A DNA stretch of 39,335 nucleotides from contig JAFUTR010000012.1 in NCBI GenBank assembly GCA_017477845.1, forward strand, positions 1-39,335, in the 5' to 3' direction. The position numbers and the translations under genes are program-made. How positions within the stretch are numbered: position 1 is the stretch's first letter; each line of letters begins with the position of its first letter. Of this stretch, positions 21,575-21,789 are shown piece by piece. The notes below the pieces were generated by a model that ran no database searches, was not told the origin of the DNA, and was given only the letters and a program-made list of their open reading frames with translations. This stretch comes from Bacilli bacterium (lineage in GTDB: Bacteria; Bacillota_I; Bacilli_A; RF39; UBA660).

Positions 21575-21608
21575 AAAAACTCCTCCTATTCTTAAGGGAT
21601 TTCTTTAC

Positions 21609-21643
21609 AAAAAAAGAAGGAATTTCAAAATGAAATGCCTTCT
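21609..21643 (-). terminator. Leader attenuator upstream of uraA-upp
   Basis: Minus strand AGAAGG-C-ATTTC stem pairing with GAAAT-T-CCTTCT, 5-base loop, followed by TTTTTTTG. It lies about 35 bases before the uraA start and within the transcribed leader, and its first stem bases are the last bases of a leader ORF stop codon. A regulated, premature terminator is the simplest reading. Confidence 0.8.
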
Positions 21644-21740
21644 AACTTATTAATAAAGAAATATTAAAGAATTTGAAAAAATGAGAATATTTACCTCTTG
21701 CTCTAGTTTTTGGTAAATTGTAAATACTTCTTTTCTTCAT
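21642..21740 (-). CDS. 32-residue leader peptide of the uraA-upp operon (candidate)
   Basis: ATG at 21740, preceded at 8 bases by GAGGG (21753-21749); TAG stop at 21642-21644. The product is basic in its first half (MKKRSIYNLPKTRARGKYSH) and hydrophobic after that. The last third of the message is U-rich (runs near 21660-21685), and the stop codon enters the attenuator stem. In enterobacterial pyrBI, a U-rich pause plus a translated leader overlapping the terminator lets a ribosome block termination when UTP is scarce; the layout here is the same. No full PyrR-loop consensus was found. The call rests on the start site, frame and position only. Confidence 0.55.
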   Translation of the reverse strand: MKKRSIYNLPKTRARGKYSHFFKFFNISLLIS

Positions 21741-21760
21741 ATCTTTTACCCTCACTAAAA

Positions 21761-21789
21761 AGAATATAATATTTTTTATTTAAATGCAA
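21761..21789 (-). promoter_or_regulatory. Promoter of the uraA-upp leader
   Basis: Minus strand TTGCAT (21789-21784), 17 bases, TATTCT (21766-21761); TATATT two bases upstream is an alternative -10. The transcript should start near 21755, so the leader ORF ribosome site is almost at the 5' end. Confidence 0.55.

Follow-up and report, generated by a model that had tools for sequence, protein, structure and literature searches.

What controls uracil uptake in a member of the Bacilli whose uraA-upp operon is preceded by a short ORF and an intrinsic terminator is the question raised by this locus. The window, by which we mean the whole stretch of DNA analysed, comprises 39,335 nucleotides of contig JAFUTR010000012.1 (assembly GCA_017477845.1). 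An earlier note, made from the sequence alone, had read the ORF as a translated leader whose stop codon enters the terminator stem, and had proposed UTP-sensitive attenuation of the pyrBI type in a lineage where PyrR is the rule.

Layout of the uraA leader

The operon lies on the minus strand, in the order leader ORF, terminator, uraA and upp (Table 1). The main elements described in the note are found there: the 32-codon ORF with its GAGGG ribosome site stands between promoter and uraA and encodes MKKRSIYNLPKTRARGKYSHFFKFFNISLLIS followed by a stop, the A and G of the TAG stop form the first two pairs of the terminator, and the last third is U-rich, with 57% U across the final 40 nt preceding the stem. 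The terminator, a stem of AGAAGG-AUUUCA / UGAAAU-CCUUCU plus a U-tract, folds at -11.1 kcal/mol (z = -4.0), and none of 200 shuffles was equally stable. The promoter TTGCAT-17-TATTCT is missing from the list given by a consensus promoter scan of the window; similar promoters are found in the equivalent place in 69 of 77 relatives, with a median of 20 nt from the -10 box to the start codon, and the leader transcript of the window is predicted to start at about 21754-21756. For uraA the best match is the uracil permease profile NF007995, although the score remains below the cut-off of that profile.

Table 1. Features of the uraA-upp locus in the order of transcription.
Feature	Position	Strand	Basis or remark
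Promoter-like site TTGCAT (21789-21784), 17 nt, TATTCT (21766-21761)	21761..21789	-	sequence reading
Long-range helix, 5' arm UGAGGG, overlapping the leader Shine-Dalgarno	21749..21754	-	covariation across 77 relatives
Shine-Dalgarno GAGGG of the leader ORF	21749..21753	-	8 nt to ATG; sequence reading
Leader ORF, 32 codons, ATG 21740, stop TAG 21644-21642	21642..21740	-	architecture kept in 74/77 relatives
Final, U-rich third of the leader ORF, where UTP-sensitive pausing is presumed	21642..21688	-	U composition
Intrinsic terminator (attenuator), stem 21643-21615, U-tract 21614-21608	21608..21643	-	folding
Long-range helix, 3' arm CCCUUA, made only after terminator read-through	21593..21598	-	covariation across 77 relatives
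uraA Shine-Dalgarno AGGAGG	21582..21587	-	sequence reading
uraA, uracil permease (NCS2 family), 479 aa	20135..21574	-	TIGR00801 above cut-off
upp, uracil phosphoribosyltransferase, 208 aa	19512..20138	-	NCBIfam TIGR01091, 278.8 bits

The only other hairpin of the window leader lies within the ORF and is not significant (z = -0.9). A pause hairpin inside the ORF, as in pyrBI, was rejected as unsupported at this value, and the statement of the note that no competing antiterminator hairpin is present holds. The Rfam search of the window gave no match at gathering and only chance matches at E≤5, and the phage collection gave no match.

The leader in related genomes

A search with the leader DNA in 145 family genomes returned short AT-rich noise, except for G049. 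Since leader DNA is too divergent, the uraA protein was taken as anchor to collect relatives from 80 genome contig loci, 21 of 193 same-family genomes and members of the genus. The contig loci are labelled as uncultured Bacilli, Erysipelotrichaceae and Clostridia, and many of the sample names refer to ruminant or other gut material.

Nearly all close uraA genes show this leader arrangement. A Shine-Dalgarno sequence, an ORF of 20-50 codons and a stop codon located -6 to +25 nt from the stem start were found in 74 of 77 dereplicated leaders, against 0.69 +/- 0.84 (maximum 4) when the whole detection procedure was applied to 100 rounds of dinucleotide shuffles. The denominator is made up of 81 dereplicated loci minus four wrong automatic calls, which had picked an upstream gene or the wrong hairpin; before their exclusion the stop position was met in 74 of 81. 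These counts are not independent, as the loci have common ancestry. Scanned under strict criteria, 797 kb containing 624 terminators gave such leaders almost only ahead of uraA, with three exceptions. The outcome named in the earlier note as a refutation, a terminator kept without the frame or a PyrR hairpin in its place, did not come about: frame and stop position are retained in these 74 relatives, and 16 leader loci gave no Rfam PyrR match even at E≤1.

Variants exist. The leader runs through the terminator in only a few relatives (L071, L113), and a stop beyond the terminator rather than at the stem foot is seen in L071 and L125. Some uraA copies have no terminator at that place, including the second copy of the window's own genome (L147, contig C1, 61% identical), which has neither leader nor terminator. 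In the same-family genome G066 a U-rich 28-codon leader with a weak terminator (L143, ~715-860) is located ahead of a PRPP synthetase gene, which is possibly under like control.

Neither is the leader a peculiarity of a single genome. Leaders of like kind precede uraA in six families of the class, the window's own and f6, f16, f18, f25 and f4. Of 20 loci of the Mollicute-like family f4, where many TGA codons are read through in uraA, 18 have such a leader, and its stop lies at -5 to +3 relative to the start of the stem; a TAA or TAG stop at or within the terminator stem is found in L241-L243, L248, L254, L256-L261 and L263-L269, the L243 leader being open only with TGA read as Trp. In one Mollicute-like subgroup the leader end is poorly U-rich (0.19-0.33), which counts against UTP sensing. 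For f9, f13, f22 and others neither leader nor PyrR loop was recognisable by scan, so that the leader is not the sole alternative to PyrR.

Two further arrangements were observed ahead of uraA. In f16 and f25 a purine riboswitch aptamer with its own terminator-like hairpin stands in tandem before a U-rich leader ORF and a second terminator; in L174, L176 and L191 the tandem was judged by eye, and only in L153 is the aptamer upstream of the leader supported by a match (RF00167, 68 bits). In G295 (f22, L184) an ORF of ~59 codons extends across a long hairpin as far as its 3' arm, a geometry closer to that of E. coli pyrL.

Peptide, U content, helix and PyrR as candidate signals

The leader peptide is not conserved and its sequence diverges freely among relatives. 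Four pairs that are near-identical and ungapped show 9, 5 and 6 substitutions at codon positions 1, 2 and 3, with no third-position excess; among the automatic pairs most diverged too far or contained gaps, and few were usable for this test. Judged from these comparisons, conservation concerns the reading frame, which stays open, the position of the stop close to the stem foot and the U-rich second half, not the peptide.

From the first to the second half of the ORF the U content rises from 27% to 55%, an increase present in 77 of 77 leaders, whose first half is A-rich. The last 48 nt contain 46-63% U, and over the last 36 nt the U fraction is 0.56 in leaders versus 0.28 in ordinary genes with terminators. 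At sites where T and A are synonymous the share of T-ending codons goes from 48% in the first half to 75% in the second, compared to a uraA baseline of 46% (Fisher 1e-16; paired p = 9e-10). This enrichment at synonymous sites indicates that U is selected at the nucleotide level, and within the limits of a sequence comparison it is the evidence which discriminates between UTP sensing, amino-acid sensing and selection for a hydrophobic peptide.

Sensing of translation, by a charged tRNA or by a nascent-peptide stall, and not of UTP, would also make use of a ribosome on the leader. A translated leader followed by a terminator is typical of amino-acid attenuators as well, and codons for Phe, Ile, Leu, Ser and Val abound in the second half of the ORF. 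These are mixed, however: no single regulatory codon is enriched, and the leaders share no stretch that repeats the codons of one regulated amino acid. Together with the lack of an antiterminator hairpin (the window candidate being the one at z = -0.9), this leaves both marks of an amino-acid attenuator absent. A nascent-chain sensor is further contradicted by the unconserved peptide, the cargo is uracil uptake, and sensing of amino acids needs no U preference at synonymous sites, where U is nevertheless favoured. We consider this explanation unlikely.

Somewhat less likely still is that a gene of the ordinary kind, coding for a small hydrophobic peptide such as a membrane micro-protein or a type I toxin-like product, stands before uraA by chance, ended by the terminator and silenced by the helix described below. 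The peptides do have a basic N-terminus and a hydrophobic C-terminus, and occlusion of the ribosome site via long-range pairing is known from type I toxins. Ordinary genes at these loci (L042-L121 and the window) likewise end close to a terminator, at a median of -4 nt from the stop, and because of this a stop next to a terminator is by itself weak evidence for attenuation; the leaders are tighter, with a median stop-to-stem distance of 0 and none beyond -15. Against such a gene, the position before uraA is fixed across relatives, the peptide is not conserved, the gap between terminator and uraA, mostly 30-60 nt, leaves scant room for a separate promoter, the hydrophobicity is accounted for by the synonymous U bias, and the leader correlates with the absence of PyrR.

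The ribosome site of the leader is complementary to a stretch between the terminator and the uraA Shine-Dalgarno. When 18-nt windows along the leaders of the 77 relatives were paired with their own or with permuted post-terminator stretches, the window at the ribosome site gave -9.9 kcal/mol with its own partner versus -6.7 with permuted ones (z = -13, 0 of 3000 permutations); an overlapping window gave z = -8.7, and the remaining ones lay between +0.5 and -2.1. Repeating the test without the uraA Shine-Dalgarno gave z = -14. The helix covaries, with up to six pair types at single positions (at position -9 GC 26, UA 22, GU 7, AU 5, UG 4 and CG 2), and near relatives carry GGGC/GCCC versus GGGU/ACCC. 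It reaches 15 or more pairs in L053 and L133 and is also longer in L063, whereas the window has a short version of 6 pairs (-7.9 kcal/mol). The paired stretch starts a median of 8 nt past the -10 box, i.e. at the predicted transcript start. This covarying helix is new, being described neither in Rfam nor in the literature searched.

As the 3' arm is transcribed only after read-through, the helix cannot influence the decision at the attenuator. It can form only in read-through mRNA, which should therefore close its own leader ribosome site; that the helix shuts this site in the finished mRNA, and that it may protect the 5' end, are roles inferred from its position. It could also be regarded as the main switch, with the CCCU-like stretch choosing between the leader and the uraA Shine-Dalgarno to control uraA translation and the terminator as a secondary element. 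The 3' arm is anti-Shine-Dalgarno-like and lies just upstream of the uraA Shine-Dalgarno (median 17 nt from the uraA start codon), but by eye the hairpins which it makes with that sequence have only ~3 bp, and the Mollicute-like f4 leaders keep ORF and terminator with no helix detected (z = -0.2), which makes such a switch very unlikely.

In sister families of the class uraA is preceded by PyrR loops, with RF00515 matches in L151, L152, L171 and L168, weaker ones in L155 and L161, and further loci recognised by motif. Of the 22 genomes whose uraA has a PyrR-type leader, 21 encode a PyrR protein over cut-off (NF003549), and the remaining one is 55% complete. In 16 leader loci no RF00515 loop was found even at E≤1, and the search for pyrR which the earlier note had called for gave a protein above cut-off in 0 of 58 family genomes and 0 of 36 leader genomes. 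The three PF00156 proteins of the window's genome were read from sequence as apt (adenine PRTase), prs (PRPP synthetase) and upp. The AGUGAGGG sequence, taken in the note for a partial PyrR loop, is not one; UGAGGG is the helix arm that pairs with CCCUUA past the terminator, which had been overlooked. A degenerate form of the PyrR-dependent attenuation standard in Bacilli, suggested by the resemblance of AGUGAGGG to a portion of the loop and by the sister families, can be discarded at the sequence level, as there is neither gene nor RNA loop match and UGAGGG is accounted for by the Shine-Dalgarno plus the long-range helix.

PyrF (OMP decarboxylase) was not found in any of 12 genus genomes. The window's genome has two PF02729 carbamoyltransferases, one after an arginine-deiminase-like gene and the other after polyamine-transporter-like genes, which judged by these neighbours are of the ornithine and putrescine type. 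Without an OMP decarboxylase and with carbamoyltransferases of these types, the genome probably depends on uracil uptake. The contig C1 that carries the second uraA copy also bears a carbamoyltransferase gene downstream of polyamine-transporter-like genes.

Proposed attenuation and its relation to known systems

We favour, with a probability of roughly 0.78, the reading that transcription of uraA-upp is attenuated here in a ribosome-coupled, UTP-sensitive manner, similar to pyrBI and in place of PyrR. Of the pyrBI-like attenuation claimed in the note, the features visible in a comparison of genomes stand (architecture, retained frame, U enrichment at synonymous sites and absence of PyrR, to which the covarying helix is added); the response to UTP, the blocking of the hairpin by the ribosome, the role of the helix and the translation of the leader are inferred without experiments in cells.

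A ribosome would load on the leader ORF once its site emerges. With ample UTP the polymerase would speed through the U-rich second half and outrun the ribosome, the terminator would fold and transcription would end. With scarce UTP the polymerase would pause in the U-rich stretch, allowing the ribosome to close the gap and to arrive at the stop at the stem foot, where its footprint over the 5' arm of the terminator would permit read-through into uraA-upp. Uracil uptake and UMP would thereby be restored, and in the read-through RNA the post-terminator stretch would pair with the leader ribosome site near the predicted 5' end, halting leader translation. A uracil permease together with upp is a cargo consistent with uracil attenuation. 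Sequence alone cannot separate UTP from other causes of slow transcription.

The main difficulty is coupling. Transcription in B. subtilis is reported to outpace translation, and tight spacing between stop and terminator, which ordinary genes of the present genomes show as well, was used as a proxy for uncoupled transcription and taken as a sign that uncoupling is widespread (Johnson et al. 2020, as reviewed in PMC7858274). In cells without any coupling the ribosome would be unable to reach the polymerase, which would count against the attenuator; a leader that needs such catching is unexpected in Bacilli, where the B. subtilis polymerase is reported to run ahead. The spacing also suggests that termination is the default since the polymerase outruns the ribosome, and that slowing at low UTP permits a preventive catch-up.

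Of the traits which define pyrBI and pyrE attenuators, a short translatable ORF with an intrinsic terminator before pyrimidine genes is present (translation itself being inferred), as is a U-rich transcript before the terminator, selected as nucleotides, and a ribosome that has reached the last codons would, as inferred from the size of its footprint, shield the terminator's 5' arm. The E. coli pyrBI leader has 44 codons and extends through the terminator; this trait, proper to pyrBI and not required for pyrE, is absent from the window, and here the stop is mostly at the stem foot. In the E. coli pyrE attenuator (rph-pyrE) the upstream ORF stops shortly before the attenuator stem, a geometry close to that of the window leader, although this ORF is the full gene rph and not a dedicated short leader. 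For the E. coli pyrBI attenuator (pyrL leader) read-through has been proposed to need a closely trailing ribosome (Roland, Liu and Turnbough 1988, cited in PMC5021804); it shares with our leader a short translated ORF, a U-rich stretch before an intrinsic terminator and pyrimidine genes downstream. The two differ in phylum, without sequence relationship, and in cargo, biosynthesis there and transport and salvage here, and only here is a covarying helix added over the leader ribosome site. The window-type leader is likely of independent origin from the E. coli attenuators and no sequence descent is claimed. With the PyrR attenuators of Bacilli (RF00515) it shares terminator control of uraA, as seen in the sister families, whereas the PyrR protein, RNA loop and antiterminator which these need are all absent. 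For the E. coli trp leader, Das et al. are said to have described in 1983 a self-limited translation in which the leader ribosome site pairs with a distal segment; the likeness is that a distal stretch, once transcribed, closes the leader's ribosome site, but that system is an amino-acid attenuator, and here the distal arm lies past the terminator and exists in read-through RNA only.

In the open PMC literature (subscription papers were outside the scope of the search) neither a uraA leader peptide nor UTP-sensitive attenuation was found described for Bacillota. What our analysis would add is ribosome-coupled pyrimidine attenuation, as an inferred mechanism, in PyrR-less Bacilli, together with the covarying helix. 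A broader and tentative idea, which we hold to be possible and no more, is that PyrR-less Bacilli and Mollicute-like genomes use coupling itself as a conditional signal, uncoupled by default and coupled at low UTP, and that in the gut lineage the read-through-only helix closes the leader site and caps the 5' end, by which this mRNA would be selectively protected from decay or made available for uraA translation, a two-stage switch without a regulatory protein. With this leader, conditional coupling can be tested genetically and directly outside proteobacteria. The leader also explains how uracil uptake could be controlled in the absence of PyrR by gut Bacilli and Mollicute-like genomes that are reduced and apparently uracil-dependent.
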